Of a DNA stretch of 64,000 bases, positions 1,202 to 7,744 are shown piece by piece; the first letter of the stretch is position 1, and every line of letters starts with the position of its first letter. The DNA is taken from positions 116,257-180,256 of the forward strand of contig NW_008705573.1 in the NCBI RefSeq assembly GCF_000186865.1, written 5' to 3'. This stretch comes from Aureococcus anophagefferens (Eukaryota > Sar > Pelagophyceae > Pelagomonadales > Pelagomonadaceae). The notes beneath the pieces were generated by a model. It saw only the letters and a program-made list of their open reading frames with translations. It made no database searches and was not told the DNA's origin. The position numbers and the translations under genes were made by a program.

Positions 1202-2104
1202 TTAGCGACACCGATCCACGATCGCGCAGAGGTCCGCGACGAACTCGTCGGCGTTCGTGTTGTGGATGGAGTGGCTCGCGGTGGGGAACTCCCTGACCCG
1301 CGCCGCGGGCAGGCGCGCGGCCAGGTCGTCGATGCCGTCCGCGCCGTCCCACTGCGCGACGGTGCCGTCCCGGCCCGCGACCCAGAGGTGCACCTCGAAG
1401 GGCAGGTCCGCGGCGGCGAGCGCGGACCACGCCTTGGACCCGTCGGCGCTCGAGAGGACGTGCTTCTTCGCGAGCGCCTGGGCCCGCGGGTTGACGTCGG
1501 ACCACCAGGTTCCGTCCGGCTGCTCGCGGAGCCGCTTGCCGACCCAGGACTCGACGCGGCCCGCGTCGTCGTAGTGCGCCAGCAGCGCGGCCTTGGCCGC
1601 TTCCAGCGACGGGAACGACCGGTCGAAGGCCGGGAGCGGCCCCGGCGCGGCCCACTTGGCCCGCGGCACCGCGTCCATGTCCTCGACGACGACGGCGGCG
1701 AGCAGGCCGGGATCCTCTTGCGCGGCGATGCGCGCGACCTCCATGGCGACGCGTCCGCCCATGGAATGACCGACGAGCACCCAGGGCTTCGCGACGCCGC
1801 GAGCCTCGACGGCCGCGACGACGTCGCGCGCGAGCGCCTCGCTGGAGAACTCGTCGACGTCGCCGAGCGGCGACTCGCCGTGGCCGCGCAGGTCGAGCGC
1901 GAGGCACGGGTAATTTTTCGACTGGAGCGCGGCGAGCGTCGACGTCCAGGTCTCCTTGCTGCTGTCCAGGCCGTGGACGAGCACGCTGGTCGGCTTTTTC
2001 GCGTTTATTGATGATGCCAGAGGGATGCGCGCGTCTGATAACGCGTGCGAGGAGGTCGCAAACGCCGCGACGGCGACGCAGCGGCTAGCAAAGAGGTGCG
2101 CCAT
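1202..2104 (-). CDS. Alpha/beta hydrolase (ABHD11-like), secreted or organelle-targeted
   Basis: 300 residues with a complete alpha/beta-hydrolase plan. An N-terminal hydrophobic leader (MAHLFASRCVAVAAF) is followed by the oxyanion-hole segment VLVHGLDSSKETW, the strand LALDLRGHGES and the nucleophile elbow VGHSMGGRVA, whose Ser is the predicted nucleophile. The catalytic His is likely in FPTASHSIHNTN near the C terminus. The arrangement resembles ABHD11 and epoxide-hydrolase-like esterases; the substrate is unknown. The leader suggests a secretory, mitochondrial or plastid destination. It is divergent from the SND3-Hsp70 gene across 346 bp. Confidence 0.85.
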   Translation of the reverse strand: MAHLFASRCVAVAAFATSSHALSDARIPLASSINAKKPTSVLVHGLDSSKETWTSTLAALQSKNYPCLALDLRGHGESPLGDVDEFSSEALARDVVAAVEARGVAKPWVLVGHSMGGRVAMEVARIAAQEDPGLLAAVVVEDMDAVPRAKWAAPGPLPAFDRSFPSLEAAKAALLAHYDDAGRVESWVGKRLREQPDGTWWSDVNPRAQALAKKHVLSSADGSKAWSALAAADLPFEVHLWVAGRDGTVAQWDGADGIDDLAARLPAARVREFPTASHSIHNTNADEFVADLCAIVDRCR

Positions 2105-2450
2105 CGTTCTTGCCGCAGCAACTTGAACTTCTGAGACCAGCGAGCGAGGTGGTCGAGGTGTACGTTCGCGTCGGCCGCGCTGCCGGCCGCCGCCGATCTC
2201 TCGTCGTGTTTGCCAGCGTCCGCGAACGTGCCTCTAGCCGGCGCCTGCACGGCTCCGCAGCTCGACGAAGCTCCCTCCAGCGGCGGCGCCTGCGCGGTTT
2301 TGTAGCCTCCCAAAGCTGCAAGCGTCGCCGCCGCGGGCGCCTCAACGACGCGGCCGCGCGCCTACGCCGACACCGCCGCTCGTTCGCGCGCGCGCCGCGC
2401 CGAAGGTCTCCGACGCGCGCGCGCGCGCAGGTTCCGCCCGCGCATCCACC
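2105..2450. promoter_or_regulatory. Divergent intergenic region
   Basis: 346 bp between the start codons of the alpha/beta hydrolase (minus) and the SND3-Hsp70 fusion (plus). It must hold both 5' leaders and promoters. It is GC-rich with CG-alternating stretches near 2380-2430. No TATA box or other defined element is convincing. Confidence 0.5.
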
Positions 2451-4451
2451 ATGGCCGCCGACGCGCCGCCAGCCGCCGCGGACGCGAATGCCGCCGCGGA
2501 CGCGAAGGCCGCCGCCGACGCCAAGGCCGCGGCCCCCGACGCCAAAGCCGACGCCGACACTAAACCCGCCGCGGACGCCGACGCGGCCCGGGCCCAAGCC
2601 AAGGCCGCGAAGAAAGACGCCGCGAAGCGCGCGAAGGCCGACGCGAAGAAGAAGGCCGAGGCCCCGGAGCCGGAGATTTCGCCGAAGCAGTTCATCGTGC
2701 CGTGCCTCATGATGGCCGCCAAGTTCTTCAAGCTCGACTTTTCGCCCTACGTCGACCAGCTCCGCGCCGGCTTCGCGTGCGCGTGCGCTCTGACGCTCGG
2801 CGTCCACTTCCTCGTCAAGTCCATCGCCGCGGGCAAGAAGGACGCGACGGAGCTTACGGTCGCGACGAAGACCTGGACCGTCTGCGACTACGACCAGGCC
2901 GAGGCCCTCAAGAAGGTCAAGGGCGCGCTCGCGTCCGCGTGCATTCCACTCGCGATGCACTACAAGTGGGGCAGCCCCATGCCCCTCCTCTTCCAGTGCA
3001 TCACGCAGCCCATGAATCTGCTCGGCGACCCCCTCGTCCGGATCCACCTCCTCGGCAGGAAGCCCGAGGGCGAGCTCGCGCGGCCGTTCAAGGCGGCGCC
3101 GAACCCGCTCGCGGACCTCCTCGGCGGCGGCGACGACGCGGCCGGCGCTTCCAAGCCCAAGGAGAAGAAGAAGCCGCCGGCGGCCCTGGACTCGTCCATG
3201 CTCATCCTCTTCGTGTCGCTGCTCGTGAGCGCCTGCGCCGTCGCGAGCGCTTTGGGCTTCCGCGGGCGCGTTGAGGTCGTGGGCATCGACCTGGGCACGA
3301 CCTACAGCGTCGTCGCCGTCTCCGAGGGCCGCAAGGGCGTGCGCGTCTTCGACGACCCGGACCGAGGCAAGCTCACGGCGTCGACGGTCGCGTTCCTCAA
3401 GGGCGGCGCCGTCGCCGTCGGCGCGGCCGCGAAAGCGCACGCGGCCAAGGATCCGCGGCACGTCCTCTTCGACGCGAAGCGCTTCATCGGCCGCGACTTC
3501 GACGACGAGAGCGTGGCGCTGCAGGCGAAGAAGTACACCTTTGAGGTGGTGAAGGACGCGAACTCGACCGGCTGCGCGTTCGCGCTCGACGTGCCGGGCC
3601 ACCCGGCCGCGGCGACGCCCGTCGACGTCGGCGCCGAGGTCGTCAAGGCCCTCATGCGCACGGTCCACGACGACCTGGGCCACGAGAACGTGAAGCGCGC
3701 GGTCATCGCCGTGCCCGCGAGCTTCGGACCGGCGCAGATCGCGGCGACGGGCGACGCGTTTAAGGCCGCGGGCCTCAAAGTCGCGCGCGTCATGCCCGAG
3801 CCCGTCGCCGCCGCCGTCGCCTACGGCCTCCACAAAAAGAAGGACGTGAACCACGTGCTGGTCTACGACTTTGGCGGCGGCACGCTCGACGTGTCGATCC
3901 TCTACGTGCAGGACGGGTCCATCGAGGTCGTCGCGAACGGCGGCGACAACGACCTCGGCGGCACGGACTTCGACCAGTGCGTCGCCGAGGATCTCGCGGC
4001 GGACGTGGCGGCGCGGACGGGCGCGGGCGACAGCGTCGCCCGGGCTGCGGGCTGCGAGGCGCGCGAGCCGCTCTGCGCGCGGCACGTCCTCGCGTCCATG
4101 GGCGAGCGGCTCAAGATCGCCGTGTCCGACGCGGCGTCCGCCGACGCGGCGTGCCTCGCGCCGCGCGAAAGCTGCGACGACCTCGTGCGCGTCGAGTTCG
4201 CCTACACGCGGAAGCGCTTCGAGAAGGCGTGCGACCACCTCTTCGTGCGCGCGATCGACACCGTCGCGCGCACGCTCGACGAGGGCATGCTCACGCACCG
4301 CGACATCGACGAGGTCGTCATGGTCGGCGGCACGAGCCGCGTGCCCAGGGTCCGCGACACGCTCCGGGACCACCTCCGCGTCGACAAGCTCAACACGGAG
4401 ATCGACCCGGACGTCACCGTCGCCGTCGGCGCCGCGTCCATCCTCGACTAA
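2451..4451 (+). CDS. SND3/Pho88 domain fused to an HSPA13-like Hsp70 ATPase
   Basis: 666 residues in one uninterrupted frame, starting at an ATG in good context (ccaccATGG). Residues 1-75 are Ala/Asp/Lys-rich. Residues ~78-226 match Pho88/SND3, the membrane protein of the SRP-independent ER-targeting pathway; diagnostic segments are TVCDYDQAEALKKVKGAL, HYKW..PMPLLFQ and VRIHLLGRKPEGELARPFKA. A hydrophobic segment (249-270) follows. Residues 276-666 form an Hsp70 nucleotide-binding domain with VVGIDLGTTYSVVAV, DAKRFIG, YDFGGGTLDVS, LGGTDF and VVMVGGTSRVPRVRDTL. There is no substrate-binding domain, as in HSPA13/STCH, and GLHK....HVLVYDFGGG also resembles HSPA13. I infer a membrane-anchored ATPase at the ER that couples SND targeting to chaperone activity. 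Topology is uncertain. Confidence 0.88.
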   Translation: MAADAPPAAADANAAADAKAAADAKAAAPDAKADADTKPAADADAARAQAKAAKKDAAKRAKADAKKKAEAPEPEISPKQFIVPCLMMAAKFFKLDFSPYVDQLRAGFACACALTLGVHFLVKSIAAGKKDATELTVATKTWTVCDYDQAEALKKVKGALASACIPLAMHYKWGSPMPLLFQCITQPMNLLGDPLVRIHLLGRKPEGELARPFKAAPNPLADLLGGGDDAAGASKPKEKKKPPAALDSSMLILFVSLLVSACAVASALGFRGRVEVVGIDLGTTYSVVAVSEGRKGVRVFDDPDRGKLTASTVAFLKGGAVAVGAAAKAHAAKDPRHVLFDAKRFIGRDFDDESVALQAKKYTFEVVKDANSTGCAFALDVPGHPAAATPVDVGAEVVKALMRTVHDDLGHENVKRAVIAVPASFGPAQIAATGDAFKAAGLKVARVMPEPVAAAVAYGLHKKKDVNHVLVYDFGGGTLDVSILYVQDGSIEVVANGGDNDLGGTDFDQCVAEDLAADVAARTGAGDSVARAAGCEAREPLCARHVLASMGERLKIAVSDAASADAACLAPRESCDDLVRVEFAYTRKRFEKACDHLFVRAIDTVARTLDEGMLTHRDIDEVVMVGGTSRVPRVRDTLRDHLRVDKLNTEIDPDVTVAVGAASILD

Positions 4452-4465
4452 GACTGCCGCCTGTA

Positions 4466-5764
4466 TTACGCGTCCGACGCGGCGCGCGCGCGCTTCTTCT
4501 TCTTCTTCTTCGCGGGCGGCGCCTCCGCCTCGTCGGCGGCGTCGAAGATGCGGCCGAGGTGGGCGAGGTAGTGGCCGACGAACCCCACGCGCGGCTCTGC
4601 GTCGCCGTCCGGGTCCGTCCACACCTCCGGGTACGCGAGGCCCGCGCCGAAAATGGAGCCGCCGTAGAGCGCGCCGCGTCGGCCGGCCGTTTCCGGAAAG
4701 TCGACCTGCACGATATCCTCGGCGTAGTCGCGGGTGTTGGTGCCGGGGACGAAGACGTCCGGGGGCGCCGCAGGCGCGAAGCCCGCGGCGTAGATGATCG
4801 CCTCGGCGCCGTCGGCCGCGAGCCGCGCCGCGACGCTCTCCGGGTCCGCGGCCGCGTCGAGCGTCTCGTAGCCGATGCTCGTCCCGACGGCGGTGCGGGT
4901 CCAGGCCGCGACGGCGCCCTTGAGGCCCGTGCCGTCGCGCTTGATCCAGCCGTCGCGCTCCTCGGCGTAGCGCGGCTCGCCCGCGAGGTCGTAGACGCAG
5001 ACGTCGGCGCCGCGCGCCGCGCAGTTCTTCGCCGCGAGCATGCCCGAGTGGGCCCCGCCGATGACGGCGACGCGCACGCCCCGCACGGCGCCGGCGAGCG
5101 CGTCGATCGTCGCCTCGGCGCGCTTCGTCGCCTCGTCAGGCGCGAGCGCGAGCGCCAGGTCGATGACGAAGACGCCGCGCGCCTCCAGCGCGGCGCGCAG
5201 CTCCGGCGACGCCTCGCGGGGCGCGCCGCCCGTCGCCAGGAGCACGCGCGTCGCCCGGCAGACGACGTCGCCGACGCCGCACTCCGCGTCCCAGCCGTCG
5301 TCGCGGCGCACGAGCGAGTGCACGAGGACGCCGTCGCGCGCGAGCCCGAGGCGGCCGCCGGCCCGCATGGCCGCCGACGCGTCGAGGAGCGCGTCGAGCG
5401 ACAGCCGCAGGGGCGCCGTCGCCGCCGGCGGCGCCGCCGCGAGGCCCGCCGCGCCCCGACGCCGCTGCGCGGCCGCGAAGTCGAACGCGTCGACGCTCTC
5501 GAACGCGGCCACGAGGCGGTCGTTCCGCGTGTTCGTCGGCACCTCGCCAAAGTCGCCGAGCCAGCCCATGGCCTCCCAGGGCGTCTTCGACACCCAGCCC
5601 ACGGACGCGCCGCCGCGCTGGAGCAGGGCGCCGACGGCGCAGGTCCCGCAGGGCCCGCCGCCGACGACGAGCCAGTCCAGCTTCTTCGCGTCGGCGCTGC
5701 GCTGGAACGCCTGGGCGAGGTCCACGGGCTTCTCCACCAGCTTCTTCCACCACGGGCTCGCCAT
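4466..5764 (-). CDS. FAD/NAD(P)-dependent oxidoreductase (flavin monooxygenase-like)
   Basis: 432 residues. An N-terminal dinucleotide-binding motif VVGGGPCGTCAVGAL (residues ~33-47) is a GxGxxG-type FAD site. A second Rossmann motif, VAVIGGAHSGMLAAKN, near residue 230 is the likely NAD(P)H site. Two-site architecture fits the flavin monooxygenase / pyridine-nucleotide oxidoreductase superfamily. YAAGFAP near residue 325 matches the ATG motif that often precedes the C-terminal FAD contact. The C terminus is Lys-rich (PPAKKKKKKRARAASDA) and could be a nuclear or membrane-proximal signal. The substrate is unknown. It is convergent with the SND3-Hsp70 gene, with 14 bp between stops. Confidence 0.82.
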   Translation of the reverse strand: MASPWWKKLVEKPVDLAQAFQRSADAKKLDWLVVGGGPCGTCAVGALLQRGGASVGWVSKTPWEAMGWLGDFGEVPTNTRNDRLVAAFESVDAFDFAAAQRRRGAAGLAAAPPAATAPLRLSLDALLDASAAMRAGGRLGLARDGVLVHSLVRRDDGWDAECGVGDVVCRATRVLLATGGAPREASPELRAALEARGVFVIDLALALAPDEATKRAEATIDALAGAVRGVRVAVIGGAHSGMLAAKNCAARGADVCVYDLAGEPRYAEERDGWIKRDGTGLKGAVAAWTRTAVGTSIGYETLDAAADPESVAARLAADGAEAIIYAAGFAPAAPPDVFVPGTNTRDYAEDIVQVDFPETAGRRGALYGGSIFGAGLAYPEVWTDPDGDAEPRVGFVGHYLAHLGRIFDAADEAEAPPAKKKKKKRARAASDA

Positions 5765-5935
5765 TATACGCGCGCCTCACGCGAGCAAAGCTGCGCCCAT
5801 GCTGTGGTAATTTTACGGCGATCGTGACGGCTCCTTGATGCAAGCACTTGGTCGATGGGTGCTCCAATCCGCGTCCTGACAAGCGCACAATCCGCGTCAT
5901 GACACGCGCACACTGCTAGCACTCAACACCCAATC

Positions 5936-6601
5936 ATGGCCTGCATGGACTACATCAAAGACATCGTCGACGAGCGCCGCCACGAGCTGGCGTCGATGCC
6001 GCGCGAGACCAAAAGTTGCGGACACCAGTGCTACCCGTCGTCCGTCGCCAAGTGCTGCGCCTGCTCGGACCTGCGTCCCGTGCGCGAGGAGGGCACGTAC
6101 CCGTCGTACGCCGACGGCGCCGGCGCGACGAACGACGGCAGACGGTCCGACCATTATTGCCCTGTTTGCTGCCCGAACAACTTCCTGCGGTGGCAGCGGC
6201 GGCGCGACGAGGAGGCCGCGCGCGTCGCGGCGCGGCACGAGCGCCTGGACGCGGAGCGCGCGCTGGCGACGTCGGCGCTGGCCGAGGACCGGGACCGCGC
6301 GCGCGCCGGAGAGCAGCGCGGGCCGTTCGAGTACCAGAACGGCGATGTGTACGACGGCCAGTGGCTCGACGGCGAGCGCCACGGCCGCGGGACGATGACC
6401 TACGCGGAGGACGGGTCGACCTACGACGGCATCTGGCGCCGCGGCAAGGAGCACGGCCGCGGCCGGAAGGAGTTCCTCGACGGGATCTCGTACGTCGGCG
6501 ACTTCGAGCACGGCATGATGCACGGCCAGGGCCGCTTCACGATGGCCGACGGCGTCGTGCTCGACGGCGCGTTCCTCGAGGACGAGTGGCAGGGCGCGTA
6601 A
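5936..6601 (+). CDS. MORN-repeat protein with Cys-rich N terminus
   Basis: 221 residues. The N-terminal third is Cys-rich (CGHQCYPSSVAKCCACSDL and CPVCCPNN), suggesting a small zinc-binding module. A charged, probably helical linker (~85-125) leads to at least three MORN repeats at ~128-215 with the pattern YDGQWLDGERHGRGTMTY, YDGIWRRGKEHGRG and YVGDFEHGMMHGQGRF. MORN repeats often mediate lipid binding or scaffold assembly at membranes and cytoskeleton. It is convergent with the SLC10-like gene, with 9 bp between stops. The specific role is unknown. Confidence 0.85.
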   Translation: MACMDYIKDIVDERRHELASMPRETKSCGHQCYPSSVAKCCACSDLRPVREEGTYPSYADGAGATNDGRRSDHYCPVCCPNNFLRWQRRRDEEAARVAARHERLDAERALATSALAEDRDRARAGEQRGPFEYQNGDVYDGQWLDGERHGRGTMTYAEDGSTYDGIWRRGKEHGRGRKEFLDGISYVGDFEHGMMHGQGRFTMADGVVLDGAFLEDEWQGA

Positions 6602-6610
6602 GCAAGCGAG

Positions 6611-7744
6611 CTAGCGCGTCGTCGCGGGGTCCCCGTCGTCCGCGCGACTTCCCGCGCGGCTCCGGCCGCGCGCGCGGCGCGAAAAGGGGAAGCACCCGCG
6701 CTTCTTCGGCGGCGGCGGCGGCGACTCGGCGTCGGGGAGGAGCGACTGGTCGAGGTCGACGTTGATGGAGACCGTCGAGCCGAAGGACTCGGAGATGCGG
6801 AGCTGCGCGATGTCGTCCTCGGACGCGTCCGGCTGGTAGTCGTTGAGGAGGAACTTGAAGAGGTTCTCCGTCGGCGGCGCGTGGGACCAGCCCATCTGCC
6901 AGGCGAAGACGCCGAAGAGCCCGATGAAGACGATCTCCGCGAGGCCGTAGACGAGGGGCACGGCCGTCGCCGCGCCCGCGTCCGACCGGGGAAACGCGGA
7001 GAGCGCGATGGTCAGGGCCAGCGCCGTGTTCTGGTAGACGCACTCGATGGCCACCGTCGTCGCCTCCGGCGGCGGGAGCTTGAGCATGCGGGAGATGGTG
7101 ACGGTCGCGCCGAGGCCCATGGGCACGGGCAGGCACACGCCCAGGAACCAGCGCAGCGGCTTCCGATAGATGGGGTCGTGGCTCATCGTGTTCCTCGCGC
7201 CGCTCAGGCCCATGAGCGCGATGCCCGCGAGCGTCCCGAACTTGTTCACGATGGAACGGCCCCGGCGCTCGAGGTGCGCCGACGCGACCAGCCCCGCGGC
7301 GACGGCCGCGACGACGACCGAGCAGGAAACGAGGATTTGGTACCAGTCGAGCCCCACGTCGCGGCCGCTCACGGTCTGCACGTAGAGATACAGATTCAGC
7401 GGCAGCGCCGCACAACTAAAAACCGTCGACGCCGACGTGATGGCCACGGACAGCGCGAGGTCCGCGTTGCAGACGCTGCACCAAAAGCCGGAGAAGCCGC
7501 CGGACGGGCTCGTCGTGATGACCAGGAGCGTCGTCGCCGTGACGACGGGCTGGGGCAGCAGCCAATATACGCAGACGTAGCCCAGGAAGGGCATGACGAG
7601 GAAGTGGCAGCAGAGGCCGCAGATGATGCCCTTGGCCTTGCGGAACTGGAGCAGGCACAGCCGGGCGTCGCAGCTGCCGGCCATGGAGGCCAGGAGCACG
7701 AAGAGCAGCAGCTGGCTGCAGAACTCGAAGAGGGACACGCGCAT
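6611..7744 (-). CDS. SLC10/BASS-type sodium-coupled transporter (bile acid:Na+ symporter family)
   Basis: 377 residues with eight to nine hydrophobic segments between residues 5 and 290, then a hydrophilic Pro/Arg-rich tail. Family cues are PSGGFSGFWCSVCNADLALS (residues ~79-98) and ECVYQNTALALTIALSAF (residues ~233-250). These occupy the positions of the two crossover motifs, GG.FSN.....D.dLS and E...QN, that bind Na+ in SLC10/ASBT-like transporters. Plant and algal homologues move pyruvate, sterol conjugates or other organic anions. The substrate and membrane are not evident, and no clear plastid presequence is visible. It is divergent from the small membrane protein at 7961. Confidence 0.82.
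   Translation of the reverse strand: MRVSLFEFCSQLLLFVLLASMAGSCDARLCLLQFRKAKGIICGLCCHFLVMPFLGYVCVYWLLPQPVVTATTLLVITTSPSGGFSGFWCSVCNADLALSVAITSASTVFSCAALPLNLYLYVQTVSGRDVGLDWYQILVSCSVVVAAVAAGLVASAHLERRGRSIVNKFGTLAGIALMGLSGARNTMSHDPIYRKPLRWFLGVCLPVPMGLGATVTISRMLKLPPPEATTVAIECVYQNTALALTIALSAFPRSDAGAATAVPLVYGLAEIVFIGLFGVFAWQMGWSHAPPTENLFKFLLNDYQPDASEDDIAQLRISESFGSTVSINVDLDQSLLPDAESPPPPPKKRGCFPFSRRARGRSRAGSRADDGDPATTR

Follow-up and report, generated by a model that had tools for sequence, protein, structure and literature searches.

A derived gene fusion of SND3 with an HSPA13-type Hsp70 ATPase domain in Aureococcus anophagefferens

We analyzed a stretch of 64,000 nucleotides from Aureococcus anophagefferens (Pelagophyceae; contig NW_008705573.1, positions 116,257 to 180,256 of the forward strand), referred to here as the window. 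One uninterrupted open frame at positions 2451-4451 of its plus strand encodes 666 residues, with both a Pho88/SND3 domain and an Hsp70 domain inside it (ORF list and translation), and opens with an ATG in strong context (CCACCATGG). We conclude that this region encodes a derived gene fusion, probably translated as one product. The features of the locus, with the evidence for each, are as follows.

1202-2104, minus strand: alpha/beta hydrolase, neighbour of the fusion (Pfam)
2212..2450, plus strand: upstream region in common with the unfused SND3 paralogue L001, probable promoter and 5' leader (blastn, alignment)
2451..4451, plus strand: whole fusion gene, 666 residues (ORF, Pfam, second copy P0002)
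2451..2675, plus strand: N-terminal extension, residues 1-75, rich in Ala, Lys and Asp (alignment with the paralogue, comparison with P0002)
2676..3128, plus strand: SND3/Pho88 part, residues 76-226, Pfam match at 81-221 (Pfam, PDB profile match, AlphaFold2, structure match)
3129..3185, plus strand: linker, residues 227-245, with the Lys-rich SND3 tail KPKEKKK (blastn, alignment, AlphaFold2)
3186..3188, plus strand: CTG codon for Leu246, aligned with the start Met of P0003, the nearest unfused relative (alignment A2, genome match of P0003)
3198..3263, plus strand: hydrophobic helix, residues 250-271, MLILFVSLLVSACAVASALGFR (Kyte-Doolittle peak 2.5, alignment, helix model)
3276..4448, plus strand: HSPA13-type Hsp70 ATPase domain, residues 276-666 (Pfam 276-662, PDB, Foldseek)
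3561..3569, plus strand: NST sequon, residues 371-373 (sequence scan, loop of the relatives)
4466-5764, minus strand: frame of 432 residues with a GGGPCG motif like that of FAD-dependent oxidoreductases (by eye), no Pfam match
5936-6601, plus strand: MORN-repeat protein, neighbour of the fusion (Pfam)
6611-7744, minus strand: bile-acid-symporter-type protein, neighbour of the fusion (Pfam)

No link to ER import is visible among the four neighbours (1202-7744).

An initial annotation had described one continuous frame joining a Pho88/SND3 domain at residues ~78-226, a hydrophobic segment and an Hsp70 nucleotide-binding domain without substrate-binding domain. The domain searches that it proposed bear out this description in every part. 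Pfam places PF10032 at residues 81-221 (92.1 bits, E 3.4e-26; curated cut-off, 25 bits) and PF00012 at residues 276-662 (303 bits, E 3.7e-90). The second match spans positions 1-369 of the 599 in the profile and the frame ends four residues later, leaving the ATPase domain only; the substrate-binding domain is absent. The hydrophobic segment lies at residues 250-271, and a stop between 3130 and 3280, which would have separated the halves, is not there: the frame is open across both and continues through 4451.

The local GC content is about 70%, and an antisense frame of 845 residues overlaps the fusion frame. Since long frames are frequent by chance in GC-rich sequence, the length of the frame is in itself little evidence, and the case for the fusion rests on the two domains, the GC3 and the second copy, P0002. 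GC3 is 0.83-1.00 across all full 30-codon blocks of the fusion with no break at the junction, where each of the blocks in residues 211-300 has 0.97. A chance long frame was considered and is ruled out by the Pfam scores of both halves.

A search with residues 76-275 against 5.8 billion proteins (length ~366-1165, exact words shared) returned one match in 1522 candidates. This protein, P0002, stands for a cluster of 24 ENA sequences and is the only other fusion found: it has 664 residues and both domains, is 97% identical, and lies on another contig. Misassembly is unlikely, as P0002 has the same join on a separate contig and stays in frame despite a 2-residue in-frame deletion in the linker, and we discarded it on these grounds. 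The differences between the two fusions are unevenly spread: 8/75 in the N-terminal extension, 3/151 in the SND3 part, 4/23 in the linker, 0/22 in the hydrophobic helix 250-271 and 6/395 in the ATPase part. The SND3 part thus changes less than the N-terminus and linker taken together (3/151 vs 12/98, Fisher p 0.0016) and no differently from the ATPase part (p 0.71). Few changes in either domain, compared with the N-terminus and linker, suggest that both have been under constraint since the fusion.

The search with the ATPase part, which scored the 7994 candidates with most shared words, passed 7147 relatives; among the 120 of these listed, only P0002 has a Pho88 domain (precomputed Pfam column). 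Unfused Pho88 proteins were listed in 23 clusters of 108-279 residues, a search whose length limit (~107-341) could not show fusions; one of these clusters has an organism name, Chrysophaeum taylorii. No relative turned up in the viral and prokaryote contigs searched. As far as seen, the fusion appears confined to one lineage, outside which the homologues found are separate proteins. The initial annotation had held that homologues always encoded separately would speak against a fusion; this is indeed the pattern outside the lineage, and the fusion nonetheless stands, with the same join in P0002.

The first half of the protein has the SND3 fold. It matches the profile of Chaetomium thermophilum SND3 (ctSND3; PDB 9i78 chain 6, E 8.8e-23), and the AlphaFold2 model with its structure match agrees, with four helices of at least 15 residues predicted within residues 76-192 (78-92, 98-128, 144-173 and 176-192). 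Reading the alignment by eye, we find groove residue Q124 of ctSND3 kept as Q182 and S135 replaced by Asp193; the positions of S41, N42, S100 and Q101 differ. Relative to unfused SND3/Pho88 proteins (PF10032; 108-279 residues), the fusion adds the C-terminal ATPase and a fast-changing 75-residue N-terminal extension, nearly all of which is absent from the unfused paralogue. A charged helix is predicted within this extension, at residues 42-69.

The second half matches Hsp70 ATPase domains of the PDB (E about 1e-60; Foldseek E 2.9e-35) and shares its fold and motifs with BiP and the cytosolic Hsp70s. Among the other Hsp70s of the genome that were compared, identity to the fusion reaches 39% at most, and four align with almost the full 599-position profile as a single match. 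Over the ATPase part together with the anchor helix described below, the unfused relatives P0003-P0013 (400-439 residues) share 58-76% identity with the fusion; they lack the SND3 domain. In most, the sequence opens at the anchor helix or only a few residues away from it; P0004 and P0011 have 13 and 17 residues more. P0007 and P0013 carry MMETSP transcript names marked complete. Among the relatives listed, the nearest with a name is P0010 from Pelagophyceae sp. CCMP2097 (60% identical). More broadly, P0003-P0121 form a family of Hsp70s that have an anchor helix and, of the Hsp70 domains, the ATPase domain only; stramenopiles account for many of its named members, ranging from Nannochloropsis, Tribonema and Triparma to Phytophthora and Saprolegnia. 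One member, P0024, is labelled as a Bacteroidota MAG protein and is 51% identical to the algal family, probably reflecting algal DNA in a bacterial bin.

The likeness to HSPA13/STCH consists in an ATPase domain without substrate-binding domain and a hydrophobic segment directly before it. The fusion differs from HSPA13 in its N-terminal SND3, and in Cys542 and Cys568, which are found family-wide here, whereas the human sequence used for comparison has no Cys at those columns. A clade with human HSPA13 was recovered with support of 100/99 (with five other Hsp70s) and 98/94 (with eight), the putative orthology resting on one human sequence that is long-branched and of odd composition; by BLAST this sequence scores 272 bits against the best conventional Hsp70 of the genome and 175 against the fusion. 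HSPA13 has been described as highly conserved across Eumetazoa, and the ATPase residues K100 and T230 of the human protein (PMC9691929) are equivalent to K343 and T478 of the fusion, both invariant in the alignment of 20 of the 120 listed ATPase matches (A2).

Insight into the origin of the fusion came from the other SND3 genes. A profile search gave three Pho88 matches in the genome: the fusion, L001 and L003. The last is a divergent Pho88-family gene of 436 residues (on contig C74; L003 1342-2652, minus strand; Pfam 89.9 bits); it has an acidic tail and an N-terminal presequence that by eye resembles a signal followed by a transit-like stretch, and may possibly be an SND3-type protein of a plastid-surrounding membrane. 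L001, on contig C8, is a close, unfused paralogue of 195 residues that has 79% identity to the fusion where the two align. The similarity of its DNA to the fusion falls into two blocks in blastn. The first (window 2212-2478 against L001 1186-1488; 68.7%, E 4.5e-28) covers ~240 bases before the ATG, suggesting that the upstream region 2212-2450 was apparently carried along in the duplication. The second block, 2664-3162, ends 23 bases before the CTG at 3186.

This CTG coincides with the beginning of the closest unfused ATPase. In alignment A2, MDSSILILFVS at the start of P0003 stands opposite LDSSMLILFVS of the fusion; when P0003 is searched against the genome, its residue 1 falls on C13:119442, which is window position 3186. 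Seven of the 19 unfused rows have Met in this column (P0003, P0004, P0007, P0008, P0009, P0014 and P0016), six of them as first residue, and both of the nearest relatives in the tree, P0003 and P0007, are included. The simplest reading is that a start codon was lost here through a change from ATG to CTG; the ATG at 3198 could also be the old start, as P0005, P0012 and P0027 have their first residue in the Met250 column.

Phylogenies of the ATPase domain nest this half of the fusion among unfused proteins, as sister to P0003 (98/90 and 99/90 in two trees). They were built with 21 of the 119 unfused relatives and without L015, L016 and L017, whose match was too short; four more divergent Hsp70s were left out of the first tree, and three of them were restored in the second. 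On these comparisons the fusion is a derived, not an ancestral, state. Among the scored candidates of the genome, where at least 18 PF00012 matches were compared, we did not find a second close HSPA13-type gene: after the fusion, the next best match to P0003 by score is 40% identical, with 41% at most among the matches listed. SND3 keeps a twin, whereas this ATPase, with no other close gene among these candidates, seems to come from the fusion alone.

We thus propose that a copy of the SND3 gene, together with its upstream region, came to adjoin, on the 5' side, the only close HSPA13-type gene of the genome, and that the SND3 stop and the downstream start, most simply by the change at 3186, were then lost. 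With both lost, one message from an SND3-type promoter would encode the two halves. The history of this fusion is unusually clear: the SND3 duplicate brought upstream sequence with it, a start codon was probably lost, and the unfused twin persists in the genome.

The arrangement of the product in the membrane can be predicted from its parts. ctSND3 crosses the membrane four times, and its C-terminal tail is cytosolic (PMC12572126). In the fusion the region after the SND3 part is predicted with low confidence (pLDDT <50 at residues 225-247, AlphaFold2) and leads into the hydrophobic helix, which is the conserved membrane anchor of the ATPase-only family (predicted helix at 249-267). The 15 residues that precede this helix contain five Lys/Arg, and two follow it. 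Together with the cytosolic tail of ctSND3, this charge distribution predicts that the ATPase part is lumenal. A sequon-bearing loop and two conserved Cys lend this side of the membrane independent, if indirect, support. NST at 371-373 is the sole N-glycosylation sequon of the ATPase part. For 111 of the 119 relatives (those of length 380-580), the loop at 358-382 contains a sequon in 83, against 23.7 +/- 3.9 after shuffling each loop; this loop was chosen as the best sliding window (the median window has 7), and the exact N371 column has a sequon in 28/111. Cys542 and Cys568 are found in 111/111 of these relatives and in 0/5 other Hsp70s of the genome. Finally, 82 and 57 residues precede the anchor helix in P0120 and P0096; these, with the conservation of the helix, speak for an anchor rather than a signal that is cut off. 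The same two proteins suggest that cytosolic N-terminal extensions may have arisen more than once in the ATPase-only family.

Most likely, then, the product comprises an SND3 bundle with a cytosolic C-terminal tail, a fifth transmembrane helix and an ATPase in the ER lumen: the SND3 part would insert as a four-helix bundle, the former signal anchor would turn into the fifth transmembrane helix, and the Hsp70 ATPase domain would thereby reach the lumen. The alternative that fares best is a polyprotein, improbable as we judge it, in which residues 250-271 would be an internal signal peptide cut by signal peptidase, and SND3 and a soluble lumenal ATPase would separate, having only the promoter in common. 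The von Heijne matrix, whose usual threshold is 3.5, gives 9.3 to cleavage between ALG and FRGR in both fusions (the columns of the matrix sum to 161), above the same site in all 18 relatives scored. However, the best site exceeds 3.5 in 18/18 of these relatives, and two of them exceed the fusion at another site, so the score cannot tell anchors from signals. The helix and the residues that follow are also strongly conserved in the family and show 0/22 changes between the fusions, unlike a throw-away signal peptide, and the long stretches before the helix in P0120 and P0096 are as expected of a signal anchor.

The fused SND3 evolves fast. Its branch measures 0.23 against 0.039 for the unfused twin, about six times more, the short branch being weakly supported (89/57). 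In an alignment of 16 of the 23 Pho88 matches it departs at T185, G192 and E208 from columns invariant in the 16 other rows; with Q80 and A163, in conserved columns, the departures number five altogether. An 11-residue loop segment of L001 is also missing. Given the fast branch and the departures at conserved residues, its insertase activity may be reduced, and the intact, unfused SND3 retained in the genome also counts against the favoured reading. All these observations would suit a history of promoter or targeting capture, in which only the ATPase half matters and the SND3 half is a decaying passenger providing expression and ER insertion. We consider this even less probable than a polyprotein, since the changes between the fusions are as rare in SND3 as in the ATPase and far below those of the linkers. 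When codon frequencies are modelled, pairwise omega between the fused SND3 and its paralogue is 0.23 and differs from 1 at p 0.0006; without them it is 0.96-0.99, which makes the selection result model-dependent. On balance, the fused SND3 half looks fast-evolving but constrained.

That the fusion is illusory, and reflects two separately transcribed genes, an overlooked intron or an assembly error, as might be thought from the relatives outside the lineage being separate proteins, is very improbable given the recurrence of the join in P0002 with an in-frame indel, the lack of a stop between the halves, the mere 23 bases from the end of SND3 homology to the CTG, and the poor context of the internal ATG at 3198 (TCCATGC).

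What a fifth helix with a lumenal ATPase may do for SND3 is suggested by work on each partner. The fungal structure paper assigns SND3 the role of insertase in a SEC61-CCDC47-TRAP translocon and, by taxon, lists SND3 for stramenopiles and TMCO1 for alveolates (PMC12572126). In human cells, Hspa13 was purified together with Sec61 subunits, NCLN, Sec62, Sec63, signal peptidase and OST subunits; it has no substrate-binding domain, its ATPase mutants worsen import defects, and contacts with J-domain partners were suggested by the authors (PMC9691929). The co-purification of Hspa13 with the translocon and the place of fungal SND3 inside a Sec61 translocon make a functional link between SND3 and the ATPase plausible. 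The absence of TRAP from the human Hspa13 pull-down (PMC9691929) counts against it, TRAP being part of the fungal SND3 translocon, and the Hspa13 paper nowhere names SND. In the A. anophagefferens genome, a search for CCDC47 gave no match, with controls equally silent, and is thus no sign of its absence; the searches for EMC3/TMCO1 and SND2 gave one match each.

By analogy with these systems, the most economical function would be that of an HSPA13-type ATPase held at the SND3 translocon. Docking of SND3 on the Sec61 translocon would hold the ATPase at the lumenal mouth, where it would modulate the passage or folding of nascent chains by nucleotide-dependent contacts, for instance with J-domain partners; without a substrate-binding domain it would not grip the substrate. 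A derived, translated fusion with a lumenal ATPase tied to SND3 at the Sec61 translocon is, taken as a whole, the explanation we favour, with somewhat better than even confidence. The initial annotation had gone further, reading the fusion as a Rosetta stone for cooperation between the SND route and an HSPA13-like ATPase. Such cooperation is plausible through a common Sec61 translocon. For a general SND3-HSPA13 link, one fusion whose SND3 half evolves fast offers only modest evidence.

The domain architecture is real, built from known families and, as the initial annotation had supposed, apparently undescribed: the literature searched, by title and beginning of abstract and with most subscription papers outside it, contains no SND3-HSPA13 or Pho88-Hsp70 fusion. 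In the same literature only the structure paper (PMC12572126) brings SND3 together with stramenopiles, and PMC12692333 treats metazoan Hsp70-13.

A join of these two proteins across a membrane is surprising and testable. In one chain with one topology, the fusion would fix both how HSPA13 reaches and acts on the translocon and what occupies the lumenal face of the translocon that contains SND3. It yields the prediction that HSPA13-type ATPases adjoin SND3, and could itself serve as the construct for cross-linking and cryo-EM. It is a more tentative thought, and one we hold doubtful, that SND3 and an HSPA13-type ATPase form one machine across the ER membrane, coupling cytosolic insertion to lumenal, nucleotide-driven control. 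If so, HSPA13 proteins elsewhere, stramenopiles included, would partner the multipass or SND3-type translocon from the lumenal side.
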